Below are positions 6,463 to 51,727 of a stretch of 64,000 nt of DNA, piece by piece (within the stretch, counting starts at the first letter, position 1; each line of letters begins with the position of its first letter). The notes beneath the pieces are model-generated. The model was not told the origin of the DNA and did no database searches. It saw nothing but the letters and a program-made list of their open reading frames with translations. The stretch covers positions 290,522-354,521 of the forward strand of contig NZ_SJDM01000002.1 in assembly GCF_004761865.1 (NCBI RefSeq), written 5' to 3'. This DNA is from Crenalkalicoccus roseus. Its GTDB lineage: Bacteria > Pseudomonadota > Alphaproteobacteria > Acetobacterales > Acetobacteraceae. A program made the translations under genes and the position numbers.

Positions 6463-6500
6463 GGACCGGCGCCGTCCGCCTTCGCCCCGCCCCGCGCCGC

Positions 6501-6528
6501 AGCGTGATCCGCTTTGGCGGATCACGCT
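6501..6528. repeat. Perfect 12-bp stem palindrome with TTTG loop
   Basis: AGCGTGATCCGC, loop TTTG, GCGGATCACGCT. It lies 38 nt after the histidine phosphatase stop and about 100 nt before the next gene. No T-run follows, so it looks more like one of the dispersed palindromic elements of this genome than a classic terminator. Compare the palindromes at 18197, 37437, 37492 and 61211. Confidence 0.6.
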
Positions 6529-6624
6529 TCCGCCCTTCCCTGGGCGGCCGGGTCACCGTTCCGGCGATTCCGCCTTCACGGATCGGGCGCTAAGCTCGGC
6601 GGCAAGGATGCGGGGGAGGAAGGG

Positions 6625-15555: not shown

Positions 15556-18186
15556 GTGGAATTGAACGTATTGATCCGCGGCCAGTCCAACGCCCTGCTG
15601 TTCGCGCAGCACGCGGGCTGGGCGGCCCCGACCGCGATGCGGAAGGAGATCGAGAAGCTTCTCGGCTTCGATGGCGTGACCAACCGGGTGGTGGTGCATG
15701 TCGACTGGGGAGACAGCACCTCCACCGTCCACAGCGGCACCTCCTTCCTCAAGGAGTGGATGCGGAAGGACGCCTCCGGCCAGTGGGTCGCGGGCGACCT
15801 GACCAAAAGCCTGCTCGGCTACATCGCGCATGACATGACCGCGGCGCAGCGCGCCAACCCGACCGCGGTCTTCTGGCTGCACAGCGAATCGGACAGCACG
15901 ATCCACGGCCTCTCGGCCGCGGACTGGGCCGCTGCAGTGCGCGCGGACGCCGCGCTGGTGCGCCAGGCACTTGGGCAAAGTGCCGAGACGGTACCCTACA
16001 TGTTCGTCTCCGCGCATCCCTACTGGGGTAACGGCGCCGCGCACCAGGCGATCCGCCTCGGCATGGAGACGCTGGCTGCCGATGCCGGCTTCAACGGCCA
16101 CATCGCCGCGCGCGCGCTCGACCTCGACATCGACAACGACGACTACGACGGCAACCCGGCGACGCGGGAATACGGCGGCTCCCATATCTCGGCCTCCGAT
16201 GCGATGGTGATCGCCGCCCGGGCCGCCCGTTCCATAGCCGAGGCCTTCGCGCAGTACGCACTGCCCGATTCGCCCATGGCGCTCGCGGGCGGCGACATCG
16301 CCAATCTCGGGCCCAAGGTGGTGGCGGCACGGCCGGTCGGCGCGCGCACGCTTGAGATCGACGTGGAGCATGACGGCGCCGCCGCCTTCGCCAAGCTCCA
16401 CCCCGACGCGGCGAAGGGCGTGGGCTGGAGCGTGCATGTCCCAGGCGGCAAGACGCTCTACGCCACCTCCGCCACCATCCTCGACGGCGACACGCTGCGG
16501 GTGACCTTCGACGGCGATCTGCCGGCGGGCGGGATGCTGCATTACGGGTACGGCTACGGGCGCCTGGCCAGCGACGGCGGGCCCGGCCAGGGCCGCGCGG
16601 TGTACGACTCCGCCGGGCTTCCGATCTGGACGCCGGCAAGCGGCGTCGCCATCGCCGCATCGGCCACCACCCCGCCGCCGGCGAAGGGCGGTGCTGTGCT
16701 CAGCGCCGGCACCGGCCCCGATGCGCTGGTGCTGCAGATCAGCCAGGACCACTACCTCGGCGACGCGCAGTACCTCGTGAAGGTCAACGGCCAGCAGATC
16801 GGCGGCACCTTCACCGCCTCGGCCACCAGGGCCTCCGGCCTGCACGACACCCTGACCCTGCGCGGCGACTGGGGTGCGGGCACGCACAAGGTCGAGGTGG
16901 TGTTCCTCAACGACGCCTGGGGCGGCAGCAAGGCGCTCGACCGCAACCTCTACGTCGAGGGCGCCAGCTTCAACGGCCAGACGGTCGCCGGCGCCAGCCT
17001 GGCGCTGGAGCGCGAGGGGCCGGCGAGCTTCAGCATCACCAAGCCCGCCGCCACCACCCCGCCGCCGGCGAAGAGCGGTGCTGTGCTCAGCGCCGGCACC
17101 GGCCCCGATGCGCTGGTGCTGAAGATCAGCCAGGACCACTACCTCGGCGACGCGCAGTACCTCGTGAAGGTCAACGGCCAGCAGATCGGCGGCACCTTCA
17201 CCGCCTCGGCCACCAAGGCCTCCGGCCTGCACGACACCCTGACCCTGCGCGGCGACTGGGGTGCGGGCACGCACAAGGTCGAGGTGGTGTTCCTCAACGA
17301 CGCCTGGGGCGGCAGCAAGGCGCTCGACCGCAACCTCTACGTCGAGGGCGCCAGCTTCAACGGCCAGGCGGTCGCCGGCGCCAGCCTGGCGCTGGAGCGC
17401 GAGGGGCCGGCGAGCTTCAGCATCACCAAGCCCGCCACCACCACCCCGCCGCCGCCGCAGAATGACGGCCCCGTGACGCCGCCGGCGAAGGGAGAGTTCA
17501 GCACCGCCCTGCTCTGGGGCGACGAGTTCAGCGGCAATACGGTGGACGGCTCGAAATGGCCGATCCTCTACGGCGGCAGCATGTACTGGAACGGCGCCTT
17601 CCGCTGGGACAAGTCGCAGGTATCGGTGGCCGACGGCAACCTGGTGATCAGCCTGGACAAGCAGGCGGATGGAATTTGGAACGTCGGCGGGCTGGCCACC
17701 ATCCCGTCCTGGTGGGCGCCCGGCTTCAGCTTCACCTACGGCAAGGTGGAGATCCGTGCCAAGGCGAGCGAGGTGGTCTGGGGCGCCGGGCCGTGCTTCC
17801 TGCTCTGGCCGGCGAGCAACGACCACTGGCCGCCGGAGGTGGACATCCTGGAAACCCCGAAGGGGAGGGGGATGTTCACCAACCACTGGCAGGGACCCGG
17901 TGGCGATCACGACGACCACTACGAGTCGCACCTCTTCGATCTCGACTATTCGCAGTGGCATGTCTACACGCTGGAATGGACGCCGAGCCGCCTGACGCTC
18001 TTGGTGGACGGCCAGCACGTGAAGACCTTCACCGAGAACATCCCGACCGGGCCGATGAGCATCGGGCTGCAGGGCCATGTCGGTGCCGCGAAGGACGAGT
18101 GGTACGGCGGCAGCCCCAACGGCTCCGGCGTGGACCAGGTGCAGATCTTCGTGGATTACGTCCGGGTCTACGACTACATCGGCTAG
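15556..18186 (+). CDS. Multidomain carbohydrate-active protein: SGNH-like domain, two repeats, GH16 glycosidase
   Basis: 876 residues, GTG start with GAGAGG 6 nt upstream. Residues about 4-240 open with LIRGQSNALLF, a GQSN block as in SASA/SGNH esterases, and include SESDS and a late SHISASDA His. A short Ig-like segment follows (about 255-360). Residues about 370-627 are two nearly identical 129-residue units that resemble Ca-dependent xylan-binding modules (CBM36/60-like: QDHYLGDAQYLVKVNG, VVFLNDAWGG), joined by TTPPPAK linkers. Residues about 650-876 are a GH16 domain with the catalytic EVDILE motif. It should cleave beta-glucan-type polysaccharide after deacetylation. No Sec signal peptide is present, so type I or another non-Sec export is likely, or it is cytoplasmic until release. 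Confidence 0.82.
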   Translation: MELNVLIRGQSNALLFAQHAGWAAPTAMRKEIEKLLGFDGVTNRVVVHVDWGDSTSTVHSGTSFLKEWMRKDASGQWVAGDLTKSLLGYIAHDMTAAQRANPTAVFWLHSESDSTIHGLSAADWAAAVRADAALVRQALGQSAETVPYMFVSAHPYWGNGAAHQAIRLGMETLAADAGFNGHIAARALDLDIDNDDYDGNPATREYGGSHISASDAMVIAARAARSIAEAFAQYALPDSPMALAGGDIANLGPKVVAARPVGARTLEIDVEHDGAAAFAKLHPDAAKGVGWSVHVPGGKTLYATSATILDGDTLRVTFDGDLPAGGMLHYGYGYGRLASDGGPGQGRAVYDSAGLPIWTPASGVAIAASATTPPPAKGGAVLSAGTGPDALVLQISQDHYLGDAQYLVKVNGQQIGGTFTASATRASGLHDTLTLRGDWGAGTHKVEVVFLNDAWGGSKALDRNLYVEGASFNGQTVAGASLALEREGPASFSITKPAATTPPPAKSGAVLSAGTGPDALVLKISQDHYLGDAQYLVKVNGQQIGGTFTASATKASGLHDTLTLRGDWGAGTHKVEVVFLNDAWGGSKALDRNLYVEGASFNGQAVAGASLALEREGPASFSITKPATTTPPPPQNDGPVTPPAKGEFSTALLWGDEFSGNTVDGSKWPILYGGSMYWNGAFRWDKSQVSVADGNLVISLDKQADGIWNVGGLATIPSWWAPGFSFTYGKVEIRAKASEVVWGAGPCFLLWPASNDHWPPEVDILETPKGRGMFTNHWQGPGGDHDDHYESHLFDLDYSQWHVYTLEWTPSRLTLLVDGQHVKTFTENIPTGPMSIGLQGHVGAAKDEWYGGSPNGSGVDQVQIFVDYVRVYDYIG
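16663..17049 (+). repeat. In-gene tandem repeat, unit 1 (387 bp)
   Basis: First of two adjacent 387-bp units inside the GH16 protein gene, each encoding a TTPPPAK linker and a putative carbohydrate-binding module of 129 residues in total. Unit 2 differs at four positions as far as I can align them by eye. Confidence 0.92.
17050..17436 (+). repeat. In-gene tandem repeat, unit 2 (387 bp)
   Basis: Second unit. Compared with unit 1: Gly to Ser, Gln to Lys, Arg to Lys and Thr to Ala. All four single-base changes alter an amino acid and I see no silent change, pointing to a very recent duplication or ongoing gene conversion. Confidence 0.92.
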
Positions 18187-44789: not shown

Positions 44790-46733
44790 TCACAGCGCGA
44801 AGCGCGTGCCGACCAGCACGCTGCGGCCGGGCGTTGCGAAGCCGTTCACCGGCTCCCACCGGCTGTCGGTGAGGTTGCGCGCCTCCAGGAACAGCGCCAC
44901 CTGCTCCCGCGCCTGCCAGGTGGCGGCGAGGTTCACCACCACCCCGGCCGGGTTGGTGCCGGCCGCGGCGATGACGGCGCCGGTGTCGTCGTAGCGGGCG
45001 AAGGGGCCCTCCGGGCTGCGGCCGGTGAACAGCAGGGTGGGCGCGATCACCAGGCGCGGCGCCGGGCGCATCGCGGCGGTGAGGCTCACCACATGCTCCG
45101 GGCGCCGCGGCAGGCGCGTGCCGGTGCGGGGGTCGAAGGCCTGGGTGATGGTCCAGGCGGCGGTGGCCTCGATCCAGGGCGCCGGGCGCAGCGTCAGGCC
45201 AAGCTCCGCCCCGTGGATGGTCGCCCGGTCCACGTTGACCAGCGTGTCGAATTGCGGGGCGAAATTGATCAGGTCGCGGACCCGGCTGTGGAAGAAGGTC
45301 CAGCCCAGGGTGGCGAAGCGGCGCTGCCCGAAGGCGGTAAGGTCGGTCTCCATCCCCGCCTCCCAGCCGAAGCTGCGTTCCGGCCTGAGGTCGGGGTTGC
45401 CGCGGAAGATGCTGCCGATCACGCCGAAGCGCTGGAACAGCGACGGGGCGGCGAAGGCGGTGCCGGCGGCGACATGCAGCCGGCTGTGCAGCTCGGGCAG
45501 CGCCAGCACGGCGCCGAGCCGCCAGGTGGTCTCGTCGGTGAAGCCCGTGGTCGCGTCGTGGCGCAGCCCCGCGGTCAGGTCCAGCCGCCCGAAGGCGCGG
45601 TACTGCAGCGTCAGATAGCCGGCGGTGGCGTGCTGCGCCGCGTCCACGGTGGTGCGGAAGAAGGGGGCTCCGCTGGTGCTCCGCACCTCCTCCACGCCGT
45701 GGGTGATGCCGAAGGCCAGCGCGCCGTCCGACAGCGCGCCGAAGGCGGGCAGGCGCAGCGCGTTGCCCCAGTCGAGCAGGATGCGGCTGCCGCGGTAGAG
45801 ATCGTCGGCGGTGGCGGGGCTGAAGGGGTCGGGCAGGTTCACGTAGCGGCGCCGGTCCTCGGTGGCGGAGAGGCGCAGCCCCGTGGTCCAGGCGCCGCCG
45901 AGCAGCCGCGTCTCGCCTCGGAGCTGGCCGTACCAGCGCCGATCCTCGCCGGAGTAGTTGGGGTCGTCGCGCGGGATGTCGTCCAGGCCGAAATTGTTCT
46001 GCCGCCAGCGCAGCAGCGCCTCCAGCCGGGTGCCCTCCGCCGGGGTCCAGCCGAGGCGGGCGGTGGTGGCGGCGCCGCGGAAGCCGTCGCGCTCCCCGAT
46101 GTTCGGCAGGCGCGGGGCGAGGGCGTTGAAGCCGCGCGTCGAGAGGCTGTTGGCGGAGAGCAGGTAGTCCACCGCGCCCACCGTGCCGGTGGCGCCGAGC
46201 CCGCCGCGCAGGGTGCGCTGCGTGCCGCCGGCGATCTCCCCATAGGGGGCGAAGGCGCGGTCGCGCGGCGCGCGGCGGGTGACGAGGTTCACCACGCCCC
46301 CGATCGCGGCCGAGCCGTAGAGGACGGAGGCGGGGCCGCGCACCACCTCGATCCGCTCCACGTCGAACAGCAGGTCCTGACCGAAATTGAAGGCGCCGTT
46401 CGGCTCCGAGGGGTCGTTCACCGGCACCCCGTCGAGCAGGACGAGGACGTTGCGGCTGCCCGCGCCGCGCAGGAAGGCGCTGGCCTGGGCGCCGGGCCCG
46501 CCGGTCGCCGCCAGGCGCAGCCCTGGCACCTCCCGCAGCGCCTCGGCCAGGGTCTGGTAGCCGCGCTCCTCGATCTCGCGGCGGGTGATGACGGTGATGG
46601 CGGCCGGCACGCGCTCCTCCGGCGTCGGCACGCGGGTGGCGGTGACGATGGTCTCCGGGATGGCCTGCTGGGCCGGGGCGGGGGAGGGGAGGGCGAGCAG
46701 CGCTCCGGCGAGGGCTGCCAGGGGAATTCGCAT
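44790..46733 (-). CDS. btuB: TonB-dependent receptor, BtuB-like cobalamin transporter
   Basis: 647 residues. Signal peptide MRIPLAALAGALLALPSPAPA, then a TonB box (ETIVTATRVP, about residue 26), plug domain (EEIEERGYQTLAEALREVPGLRL-type start, LVLLDGVPVNDPSEPNG, VERIEVVRGPASVLYGSAAIGGVVNLVT) and a 22-strand barrel ending in an aromatic residue two before the end (RFAL). A cobalamin riboswitch lies upstream on the same strand, which settles the substrate class. It is convergent with the adenosyltransferase gene. ATG 46733 fits the signal peptide; longer upstream readings overlap the riboswitch leader. Confidence 0.93.
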   Translation of the reverse strand: MRIPLAALAGALLALPSPAPAQQAIPETIVTATRVPTPEERVPAAITVITRREIEERGYQTLAEALREVPGLRLAATGGPGAQASAFLRGAGSRNVLVLLDGVPVNDPSEPNGAFNFGQDLLFDVERIEVVRGPASVLYGSAAIGGVVNLVTRRAPRDRAFAPYGEIAGGTQRTLRGGLGATGTVGAVDYLLSANSLSTRGFNALAPRLPNIGERDGFRGAATTARLGWTPAEGTRLEALLRWRQNNFGLDDIPRDDPNYSGEDRRWYGQLRGETRLLGGAWTTGLRLSATEDRRRYVNLPDPFSPATADDLYRGSRILLDWGNALRLPAFGALSDGALAFGITHGVEEVRSTSGAPFFRTTVDAAQHATAGYLTLQYRAFGRLDLTAGLRHDATTGFTDETTWRLGAVLALPELHSRLHVAAGTAFAAPSLFQRFGVIGSIFRGNPDLRPERSFGWEAGMETDLTAFGQRRFATLGWTFFHSRVRDLINFAPQFDTLVNVDRATIHGAELGLTLRPAPWIEATAAWTITQAFDPRTGTRLPRRPEHVVSLTAAMRPAPRLVIAPTLLFTGRSPEGPFARYDDTGAVIAAAGTNPAGVVVNLAATWQAREQVALFLEARNLTDSRWEPVNGFATPGRSVLVGTRFAL

Positions 46734-46845: not shown

Positions 46846-46892
46846 CTCGGGCCGTTGCGCCGGTGCACCCCGCCCGGCACGCGCGAGACGGC

Positions 46893-47110
46893 TCTGCGCC
46901 GGCCGGTCTCCTGGCTCGCGGCTGCGGCCGGCGCGGCGATGGCCGCCGCGCTCGTCCCTGCCCGGTCCCGCCTTCTCGCGCCCCGCGGGGCGCAATGGCA
47001 TTCGGGGACCGGGCTCGCCGCCTACAGTTGCGGGGGCAGCCGCGGACTGGCGGCGGCCATGGCCGCCGCGCACCGCGTTCCCGTTTCAGCCCTTGCGGGC
47101 CACCGGCGCA
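46893..47110 (-). ncRNA. Cobalamin riboswitch controlling btuB
   Basis: On the minus strand the 5' part shows GGGCTGAAACGGGAACGCGGTG, then CCCCCGCAACTGTAGGCGGCGAGC, GAATGCCATTG, and the diagnostic B12 box AGCCAGGAGACCGGCC at 46901-46916. These are the conserved aptamer segments of the AdoCbl riboswitch, in order and at normal spacing. It faces btuB, about 160 nt downstream. Cobalamin binding should lower receptor synthesis. Confidence 0.95.
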
Positions 47111-47129
47111 TGGCCGGCTGATAGCAGCT

Positions 47130-48778: not shown

Positions 48779-49992
48779 TACCCGCCCAGCGCTCCCTTCT
48801 CCCGCAGCGATCGGATCTCCGCCTCGGAGAGCCCGGCCTCGGCCAGGATCTCCGCGCCGTGCTCGCCGAGTTCGGGGACGTCGCGGTAGACCCCCGTCTC
48901 CATTCCCTCGATGTTCAGCGGGCTGGCGACCACCCGGATATCGCCGCGGCGGCGGTGGCGCATCGGCAGCGCCATCTCCAGGTGCCGCACCTGCGGGTCG
49001 GCGAAGACCTCGTCGATCGTGTTCACCGGGCCGCAGGGGATGCCCGCCTCCTCCAGCCGCGCGATCCACCACTCGGAGGGCCTGGTGCGCGTCACCTCGG
49101 CGATGGTGGCGTTGACCCGGGCGCGGTCCTGGCTGCGGCCCTTGGGAGTCTGCCACTCCGGCACCTCCAGCCATTCCTCGTGGCCGGCCGCCTTGCAGAA
49201 GCTCTCCCAGAGCCTGGCCGAGGAGGCGGCGATGTTGATCGGCTTGTCGGCGGTCGGGAACACGCCCATCGGGATGTTCACCGGGTGGTCGTTGCCGGCC
49301 TGCCCCGCCACCTCGCCATCCATCAGCCAGCGCGTGGCCTGGAAGTCGAGCATGAAGACCTGCGCCTCGAGCAGCGAGGTGTGGACGTAGCCGCCTTCGC
49401 CCGTGCGCTCGCGGTCGTAGAGCTTCATCATGATGCCGAGCGCGAGCAGGTTGCCCGCCGTGAGGTCGTTGATCGGGATGCCGACGCGCATCGGGCCGCG
49501 GCCCGGCTCGCCGGTGATGGTCATCAGCCCGCCCATCCCCTGTGCGATCTGGTCCACCCCGCCGCGTGCGGCGTAGGGGCCGGTCTGGCCGAAGCCGGAG
49601 ATCGAGGCGTAGACCAGCCGCGGGTTGATCCCCTTCAGGTCCTCATAGGCGATCCTCAGCCGGTGCTTCACCTGCACGCGCATGTTCTCGACCAGCACGT
49701 CGGCGGTGGCGGCGAGCTTCAGGAAGGCCGCGTGCCCCGCCGGGTTCTTGAGGTCGAGGGCGATGGAGCGCTTGTTGCGGTGCAGGTTGACGAAGTCGAA
49801 GCCGTCCCGCGCCCCGCTGAGCCCGTCGCCCTGCCCCGGCGGCTCCACCCGGATGATCTCCGCGCCCCAATCCGCGAGGTGGCGGACGCAGGTCGGGCCG
49901 GCGCGGGCGAGGGTGAGGTCGAGCACGCGCAGGCCCGCGAGCGGCAGCCGGCTCTCCTGCATGATCTGCGGGTCCACGGGGCTTTCTGGCAT
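48778..49992 (-). CDS. CaiB/BaiF family (class III) CoA-transferase
   Basis: 404 residues. LPLAGLRVLDLTLARAGPTCVRHLADWGAEIIRVEPPG (in parts, from about residue 16), NLHRNKRSIALDLKNPAGHAAFLKLAATADVLVENMR, and YASISGFGQTGPYAARGGVDQIAQGMGGLMTITGEP are the full class III signature. It moves CoA from succinyl-CoA or another donor to a carboxylic acid. GGGAGGA lies 6 nt before ATG 49992; an ATG at 49998 would leave no spacing. Coupled to the crotonase gene. The repeat array at 50052 separates it from a divergent Bug gene that may supply its acid substrate. Confidence 0.92.
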   Translation of the reverse strand: MPESPVDPQIMQESRLPLAGLRVLDLTLARAGPTCVRHLADWGAEIIRVEPPGQGDGLSGARDGFDFVNLHRNKRSIALDLKNPAGHAAFLKLAATADVLVENMRVQVKHRLRIAYEDLKGINPRLVYASISGFGQTGPYAARGGVDQIAQGMGGLMTITGEPGRGPMRVGIPINDLTAGNLLALGIMMKLYDRERTGEGGYVHTSLLEAQVFMLDFQATRWLMDGEVAGQAGNDHPVNIPMGVFPTADKPINIAASSARLWESFCKAAGHEEWLEVPEWQTPKGRSQDRARVNATIAEVTRTRPSEWWIARLEEAGIPCGPVNTIDEVFADPQVRHLEMALPMRHRRRGDIRVVASPLNIEGMETGVYRDVPELGEHGAEILAEAGLSEAEIRSLREKGALGG

Positions 49993-50051
49993 GCACATTC
50001 CTCCCGGTGCAGGGGGAGAGTAGGGCGGCGGCGGGCGGAGGGCCAGCGCCC

Positions 50052-50652
50052 GATCCGCGGAGGCGGACGCCGGAGCGGTGAATCGGTCGCCCGAAGGTCG
50101 CCTGATCCGCGGAGGCGGACGCCGGAGCGGTGAATCGGTCGCCCGAAGGTCGCCTGATCCGCGGAGGCGGACGCCGGAGCGGTGAATCGGTCGCCCGAAG
50201 GTCGCCTGATCCGCGGAGGCGGACGCCGGAGCGGTGAATCGGTCGCCCGAAGGTCGCCTGATCCGCGGAGGCGGACGCCGGAGCGGTGAATCGGTCGCCC
50301 GAAGGTCGCCTGATCCGCGGAGGCGGACGCCGGAGCGGTGAATCGGTCGCCCGAAGGTCGCCTGATCCGCGGAGGCGGACGCCGGAGCGGTGAATCGGTC
50401 GCCCGAAGGTCGCCTGATCCGCGGAGGCGGACGCCGGAGCGGTGAATCGGTCGCCCGAAGGTCGCCTGATCCGCGGAGGCGGACGCCGGAGCGGTGAATC
50501 GGTCGCCCGAAGGTCGCCTGATCCGCGGAGGCGGACGCCGGAGCGGTGAATCGGTCGCCCGAAGGTCGCCTGATCCGCGGAGGCGGACGCCGGAGCGGTG
50601 AATCGGTCGCCCGAAGGTCGCCCGATCCGCGGAGGCGGATGCCGGAGCGGGC
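50052..50652. repeat. Tandem array of a 52-bp unit, 11 full copies plus a partial
   Basis: Copies begin with GATCCGCGGAGGCGGACGCC and continue GGAGCGGTGAATCGGTCGCC then CGAAGGTCGCCT. They start at 50052 and every 52 bp after, the last full one at 50572 and a partial copy at 50624 that diverges after GGAGCGG. Internal copies look identical to the eye; the edges differ by CCCGATCC instead of CCTGATCC. No spacer variation, so it is not CRISPR. It fills the 748-bp gap between two divergent genes. Because 52 is not a multiple of three, all three frames cycle, and long minus-strand readings through it are artefacts. Confidence 0.95.
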
Positions 50653-50740
50653 GGGGCTTGCGCGGAAGGCGCGGCGGCCTACCCTCGGCGCCGCCGCGGA
50701 TCCGCCGCGCGGCAGCGATACCCGACCGAGGAGGCCGTCC

Positions 50741-51727
50741 ATGCCCACCCTGCCGGCGCCCACGCGCCGCACGCTGCTCGCCGCCGCCGCCGGCCTTGCC
50801 GCCGCGCCAGCCCTGGCCCAGGCCCCCGCCGCCTGGCGGCCCTCGCGTCCGGTGACCATCCTCGTCCCCTTCGCCGCCGGATCGGGGACCGATGCCATCA
50901 CCCGCATCCTGGCCACGCTGCTCGAGCCGGAATGGGGGCAGCCCATCGTGGTCGAGAACCGGGCCGGCGCGAACGGGGCGCTCGCCGCCGCGCACGCGGC
51001 CCGCGCCGCGCCGGACGGGCACACGCTGATGATGACCACCAACACGCCGCACGGCTCCAACCCGGCGCTGATGCGGCGGCTGGACTACGACCCGGTCGGC
51101 GACTTCACCGCCATCGGCCGGGCCGGGAACTACACTTTCTGGCTGGTGGTGGGGGGCGATTCGCCCATCCGCTCGCTGCAGGAGCTGCTGGAGCAGGCGC
51201 GGGCGCGGCCCGGGCAGCTCAGCTACGCCTCGGGCAACTCCACCGGCATCGTCGCCGGCGCCACCATCGCCCGCATGGCCGGGGTGGACATGACGCATGT
51301 GCCCTACCGCAGCACGCCGCCGGCGATGACGGACGTGATCGCGGGGCGGGTCACCGCGATGGTGGTGGACGTCTCCGCCTCCCTCGGTCATGTGCAGGCA
51401 GGGCGGCTGCGGGCGCTCGGCACCACCGGCCGGGAGCGCAGCGCGCTCGTGCCCGAGGTGCCGACGCTGCACGAGCTCGGCCTCGAGGGCTTCGACATCG
51501 TGGCCTGGGCGGGGCTGGTCGGGCCGGCGCGGCTGCCGGCGGAGACCGTCTCCGCCATCAACGCCACCTTCCGCCGCGTCTGGGAGCGGCCGGAGACGGT
51601 GCGGCGCCTGGCCGGGATCGGCTTCGAAGCCAGGACCTCGACCGCGGAGGAGTTCGCCGCCTTCATCCGCGCCGAGATCGAGAAATGGGGCAACCTCGCC
51701 CGCGCCGCCGGGATCGAGCCGGAGTAG
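50741..51727 (+). CDS. Bug/TctC-family solute-binding protein
   Basis: 328 residues. Signal peptide MPTLPAPTRRTLLAAAAGLAAAPALAQ, twin-arginine-like. Mature part WRPSRPVTILVPFAAGSGTDAITRILATLLEPEWGQPIVVENRAGANG (in parts) is the family fingerprint, followed by MTHVPYRSTPPAMTDVIAGRV (about residue 187). It binds a carboxylate-type ligand in the periplasm. No membrane partner genes nearby. It is divergent from the CoA-transferase gene with the 52-bp array in between. GACCGAGGAGGCCGTCC before the ATG rules out the longer reading into the array. Confidence 0.9.
   Translation: MPTLPAPTRRTLLAAAAGLAAAPALAQAPAAWRPSRPVTILVPFAAGSGTDAITRILATLLEPEWGQPIVVENRAGANGALAAAHAARAAPDGHTLMMTTNTPHGSNPALMRRLDYDPVGDFTAIGRAGNYTFWLVVGGDSPIRSLQELLEQARARPGQLSYASGNSTGIVAGATIARMAGVDMTHVPYRSTPPAMTDVIAGRVTAMVVDVSASLGHVQAGRLRALGTTGRERSALVPEVPTLHELGLEGFDIVAWAGLVGPARLPAETVSAINATFRRVWERPETVRRLAGIGFEARTSTAEEFAAFIRAEIEKWGNLARAAGIEPE

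Follow-up and report, generated by a model that had tools for sequence, protein, structure and literature searches.

The 52-bp tandem array that lies between two divergent genes of Crenalkalicoccus roseus probably arose in place, through tandem multiplication of one part, the 5' stem-loop module, of a small non-coding dispersed element, which is restricted to some Acetobacteraceae and behaves like a non-autonomous mobile repeat. Within the 64,000-nucleotide stretch analysed here (the window), TRF calls the array at 50047-50650 (plus strand) with a period of 52, 11.6 copies, 99% matches and 0% indels, the copy number being that assembled in a 127-contig draft. The array comprises 11 complete units and a partial twelfth (50619-50650), each corresponding to one 5' hairpin module of the dispersed element. 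A search with the unit returned 11 matches at 50052-50623, ten of them exact and the eleventh with a T>C change at its last base, while none is expected in shuffles. Cutting the array at CGCC gives 12 starts, with CGCCCGAT in the first unit, CGCCTGAT in each of the ten interior units, and CGCCCGAT together with one further change in the partial twelfth. The interior units are identical to each other and do not vary in length, and outer units that differ from the ten interior ones are as expected if expansion happened inside the array. The first unit is preceded by CCAG (50043-50046, plus strand), a degenerate form of the (C/T)TAG found ahead of most element copies. On the same strand it consists of a 5' constant frame CGCCCGATC (50047-50055), a hairpin core CGC-GGA-GGCGGACGCC-GGA-GCG with a GGA/GGA internal loop (50056-50077), which is the part that is wholly different between loci in Roseococcus, and a 3' constant frame GTGAATCGGTCG (50078-50089) with an unpaired TGA and a lower stem that pairs with the 5' frame.

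The array is flanked by a CoA-transferase family III gene (PF02515, 48778-49992, minus strand) and by a TctC/Bug substrate-binding receptor gene (PF03401, 50741-51727, plus strand), with 55 bp to the start codon of one divergent gene and 90 bp to that of the other. A preceding sequence-only reading had described 11 near-identical copies without spacer variation, edge copies departing from the inside ones and a position between divergent CoA-transferase and Bug genes, and all of this holds. No gene is called through the array, and a protein-coding array was rejected since a period of 52, not being divisible by 3, shifts the frame; a CRISPR array was likewise rejected, the units being head-to-tail and without spacers. 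Neither a promoter nor an intrinsic terminator was found within the array, and a search for a GC stem followed by a U-tract gave 0 hits in 49900-50800; the element consensus also has no U-tract. The Rfam 15 covariance models gave no match at the array nor in four element loci. Besides, a CCTAxTCTC-like motif is seen at about 50014-50024 and 50677-50688, just upstream of the RBS of both divergent genes, and also upstream of CoA-transferase orthologues at four further loci (L153-L156). This motif may be a -10 element, which would place the array just upstream of both promoters.

The unit is not confined to the array. Searches of the source genome (127 contigs with a total of 4.43 Mb, completeness 99.95%) with either 16 bases of the unit or a pair of units recovered many more sites beyond the array, and the element occupies at least 80 places, forming 89 clusters in the fetched loci. 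A covariance model gave at least 139 matches at E<=0.01, E-values here being rough, with array units counted singly and 150 candidates scored. Apart from 464 kb, this survey of the element's own genome was one of similarity to a single stem class. At most of these places the unit is present once, as part of an element about 95 bp long, which consists of (C)TAG, stem-loop 1 (a module of 52-57 bp), a spacer, stem-loop 3 and TAG; its left end is (C)TAG and its right end often TAG. Stem-loop 1 is a constant frame CGYCYGATC..GYGANTCRGYCG around a hairpin, and stem-loop 3 reads GYGTGATCC..GGATCACGC. The 52-bp unit is thus the 5' hairpin module of this element, and the array at 50047-50650 has no stem-loop 3, begins at CCAG and is not placed at a stop codon. 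A full-length single copy with the 5' module and the 3' hairpin, the best score in the genome, lies in an intergenic region of the same window (6496-6593, minus strand).

Further arrays were found in the source genome with periods of 54-57 and 2-12 units; one of these is again long (12 x 54), and several have 2-4 units. Several of them end in one stem-loop 3, the repeated part being the 5' module. Unit identity is 98.7% within arrays and 82.8% between arrays, and therefore each array most likely grew from its own element copy. Together with copy-number differences between orthologous Roseococcus arrays (see below), these values support the earlier suggestion of recent expansion or homogenisation. 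The 12 x 54 array (locus L025, 4384-4701, minus strand) is a near neighbour of the tmRNA gene. At loci L035, L113, L130, L135 and L151, another dispersed motif (about CCAGGGCGAACGGAACATGCCCTGG, itself preceded by more conserved sequence) directly adjoins the left end of the element, and intergenic regions resemble mosaics made of several repeat families. A search for plasmid carriage of the full element gave no match.

Both stem-loops are maintained by compensatory change. When 54 elements are aligned by sequence only, the two-stem structure is paired in 90% of its cells, and changes on both sides are seen at 14 of the 30 pairs, with 78 such cells against 24.9 in shuffles; slid versions of the structure collapse. 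Stem-loop 1 displays a GGA/GGA-type internal loop and the unpaired TGA. The inverted TCCGC..GCGGA pair previously noticed in each unit is present, while it is only a part, and not the whole, of the hairpin backed by conservation. Folding of a single unit is no better than that of shuffles, so the structure rests on covariation and not on energy. Counts of G-U against A-C mismatches, taken as a plus-strand RNA signature, lean in opposite directions in the two stems and hence do not distinguish RNA from single-stranded DNA. The ends of the element form imperfect terminal inverted repeats (CTA-GCG..TGATCC / GGATCACGC..TAG).

The placement of the element is strongly biased. With genes called by a simple codon-usage caller made for this analysis, none of the 89 clusters of the source genome extends more than 30 bases into a called gene. 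Convergent gaps make up 31 of the 80 gaps with elements and 25 of the 262 elsewhere (p=1e-8); divergent gaps are not enriched (17/80 vs 63/262). The element often starts exactly on the TAG stop of the upstream gene: TAG is the stop in 16 of the 18 upstream genes that abut an element, as compared to 101 of 509 others (p=1.5e-9). This excess could be partly built in, the element itself starting with TAG, but TAG is also present at the very joint at two sites that are empty in one of the two Roseococcus species compared below. Of 56 Roseococcus loci, 25 lie directly next to an upstream stop codon (TAG in 12 cases, p=5e-5) and 4 are inside a called gene; 30 of 54 are in convergent gaps.

Outside the source genome, the element was detected at a strict cut-off in 5 genomes out of a sample of 100 from the family. 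Over one locus compared, a further genome of the family was identical to R. thiosulfatophilus, which assigns the window to Acetobacteraceae. An exact pattern scan recovered it in Roseococcus suduntuyensis and R. thiosulfatophilus (90 and 57 matches, respectively), Roseococcus sp. SDR, Roseomonas, Falsiroseomonas bella and several Acetobacteraceae metagenome bins, and arrays of 2-4 units are also present in independent Roseococcus assemblies. In metagenome-derived Acetobacteraceae we observed the entire element of about 92 bp in tandem, and not just the 5' module (L106, 6040-6369; L110, 3366-3547; L081, 1691-1874; L094, 4441-4623). The earlier reading knew the repeat from no named family, and indeed it is described neither in Rfam nor in the literature searched.

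R. thiosulfatophilus and R. suduntuyensis share about 91% identity over the segments that were aligned with each other. Several elements occupy the same site in both species, while others are present in one only. R. thiosulfatophilus reads GGGATAG-[element]-TAGCCGGGGCC where R. suduntuyensis reads GGGATAGCGGGGCC, GGGATAG running straight into the right flank; conversely, a full element of R. suduntuyensis is absent from R. thiosulfatophilus at GGCTAAATCATAGG, and a 55-bp unit is present in one species and absent from the other exactly at CTAG|CGCC. Orthologous arrays have 1 vs 3 and 3 vs 4 units. It follows that copies come and go and that arrays change by whole units, each difference of this two-species comparison being a gain or a loss. 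TAG is doubled in one clean pair of empty and occupied sites, but GTAG is near-constant at the right end of the element, and target duplication is ambiguous because most copies end in GTAG whatever their left flank.

The frame CGYCYGATC...GTGAATCRGCCG is kept constant in Roseococcus, and the hairpin it encloses is wholly different between loci yet paired. Such frame-enclosed hairpins were found at 27 and 29 loci in Roseococcus segments of 0.80 and 0.78 Mb, and at none in reversed sequences. The enclosed stems can be sorted into at least a dozen classes that resemble each other little in sequence, yet nearly all of the stems pair over their full length; at one pair inside the frame, T-A occurs in 48 units, C-G in 38, T-G in 4 and C-A in 0. 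One stem is common to all units of an array. Two units of one stem stand at a gene end of R. suduntuyensis, and the orthologous gene end of R. thiosulfatophilus has three units of a different stem. An unbiased 400 kb of the Crenalkalicoccus roseus genome contains almost only the CGCG..GCG stem class. On the strength of the common frame, the loci with other stems would belong to the same family. A tentative idea, which we hold as possible but rather doubtful, is that a protein or ribonucleoprotein reads the fixed frame together with the shape, not the sequence, of the hairpin, and that copying without Y1 would spread elements to TAG stops and rewrite whole arrays. If true, this would explain orthologous arrays with unrelated but perfectly paired stems.

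A non-autonomous mobile repeat of this kind would land at TAG or CTAG, often the stop codon of the upstream gene, and an inserted element would survive almost solely between genes, where it would be tolerated. The first module would then be gained or lost in exact units by slippage, which we infer here, or by unequal recombination, and such exact gain and loss would keep the units within an array identical. The differences between species would likewise reflect transposition rather than precise deletion. In a scan with positive controls, Y1_Tnp (PF01797) was found in 0 of five carrier genomes, and mobilisation by RAYT/IS200 was therefore rejected. IS701-type DDE_5 transposases were considered for their YTAR-like target and rejected as well, DDE_5 being absent from four carrier genomes. 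A longer element bounded by the terminal inverted repeats was not found in the Roseococcus segments searched, and a pattern search over four genomes gave only seven places, none of which bounds a longer element in the segments covered. One property counts against a simple mobile repeat: the upkeep of the stems by compensatory change exceeds the needs of inert debris.

This upkeep, by which stems stay paired while their sequence is replaced, also favours a functional RNA element at the 3' ends of genes, in which sense stem-loops just after stop codons would serve in mRNA protection or termination, above all at convergent ends, the arrays being an accidental multiplication of a useful hairpin. 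The Roseococcus loci abutting an upstream stop or lying in convergent gaps are in agreement with such a role. We nevertheless consider it unlikely, as 17 of the 80 own-genome element gaps, the array at 50047-50650 included, are upstream of both neighbours, no U-tract terminator exists at the array, the mismatch counts give no consistent plus-strand RNA sign, and sites differ by presence or absence between close species. Even less probable is an assembly artefact, with an array that is shorter in the cell. The assembly is a draft and short reads cannot count identical units over 600 bp, but the same genome has the second long array and several of 2-4 units, and short arrays recur in the independent Roseococcus assemblies.

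The sequence-only reading had further proposed that the copy number tunes the spacing or expression of the two divergent genes, or that the repeat is a protein-binding array. The position close to both start codons is the sole point in favour of such a tuning, insulating or protein-binding array, to which we give very little credence. The unit is dispersed and located mostly at convergent ends and at the 3' ends of genes, with divergent gaps not enriched as given above, and a conserved CoA-transferase/Bug promoter was rejected since the gene pairing was not found in relatives. That reading had itself proposed to search for the unit across Acetobacteraceae and had named scatter with no link to promoters as the result that would tell against it. 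We thus prefer the non-autonomous mobile repeat with in-place multiplication of its 5' module, and infer that the array has no dedicated role at this divergent site.

By analogy, the closest counterparts are BOX, REP/BIME and MIRU, and the element seems to work most like the pneumococcal BOX. MIRU/VNTR loci of Mycobacterium tuberculosis are dispersed intergenic repeats of 40-100 bp with tandem copies in variable number. The element resembles them in these general features, while its unit is defined by a covarying stem-loop and a TAG boundary. RUP and Correia elements are MITEs. With MITE features taken as given in PMC3049150, the element is similarly short and structured, has imperfect terminal inverted repeats and varies by presence or absence between species; it differs in being GC-rich and in the amplification of an internal module, and no parent transposase was found among those looked for (same ends in the Roseococcus segments; DDE_5). 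With REP/BIME and the GTAG/CGTC-tagged palindromes associated with RAYT (PMC3733652) it shares short extragenic palindromes in many copies, a tetranucleotide at one end and tandemly reiterated clusters; it is larger, with two different stem-loops in fixed order, a TAG-type sequence at both ends and no Y1 transposase in carriers. A REP/RAYT palindrome proper (20-40 bp, GTAG or CGTC at the 5' stem foot) was rejected, the element being about 95 bp with a left tag that is mostly (C)TAG and with GTAG 3' of the last stem; CGTC repeats are stated to be missing in Acetobacteraceae (PMC3733652). BOX of Streptococcus pneumoniae (boxA-boxB(n)-boxC) is likewise a small, modular, folded intergenic repeat with terminal inverted repeats, in which one module is tandem in variable number between single ends and which differs in presence and size from genome to genome; the number of boxB modules is variable, and BOX is over-represented between convergent genes (PMC3049150). 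The Acetobacteraceae element is GC-rich, repeats the 5' end itself, is tied to TAG stops, has a hairpin core that varies by locus and occurs in a different phylum. We use BOX-like as a working type, the element having single end modules and a tandemly variable one, by likeness of architecture.

Altogether, the element seems to represent a so far undescribed family of small dispersed repeats of Acetobacteraceae (Roseococcus, Roseomonas, Falsiroseomonas and relatives), in which REP-like hairpins and BOX-like modular arrays occur together with a TAG stop codon bias. A constant frame around wholly replaced stems, together with the lack of a REP transposase, makes it a natural test case for the spread and homogeneity of REP/BOX-type repeats. 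Its arrays are candidate VNTR typing markers, and annotators should mask them.

Two other features of the window were observed. A gene at 15556-18186 (plus strand), whose C-terminal part looks by eye like a glycoside hydrolase, contains two in-frame copies of a 129-residue segment (16663-17461; 383 of 387 bases identical), and the repeated segment looks, again by eye, like a recently duplicated carbohydrate-binding domain. A cobalamin riboswitch (Rfam RF00174, 67 bits) is located at 46884-47122 (minus strand), upstream of the minus-strand gene at 44790-46733.
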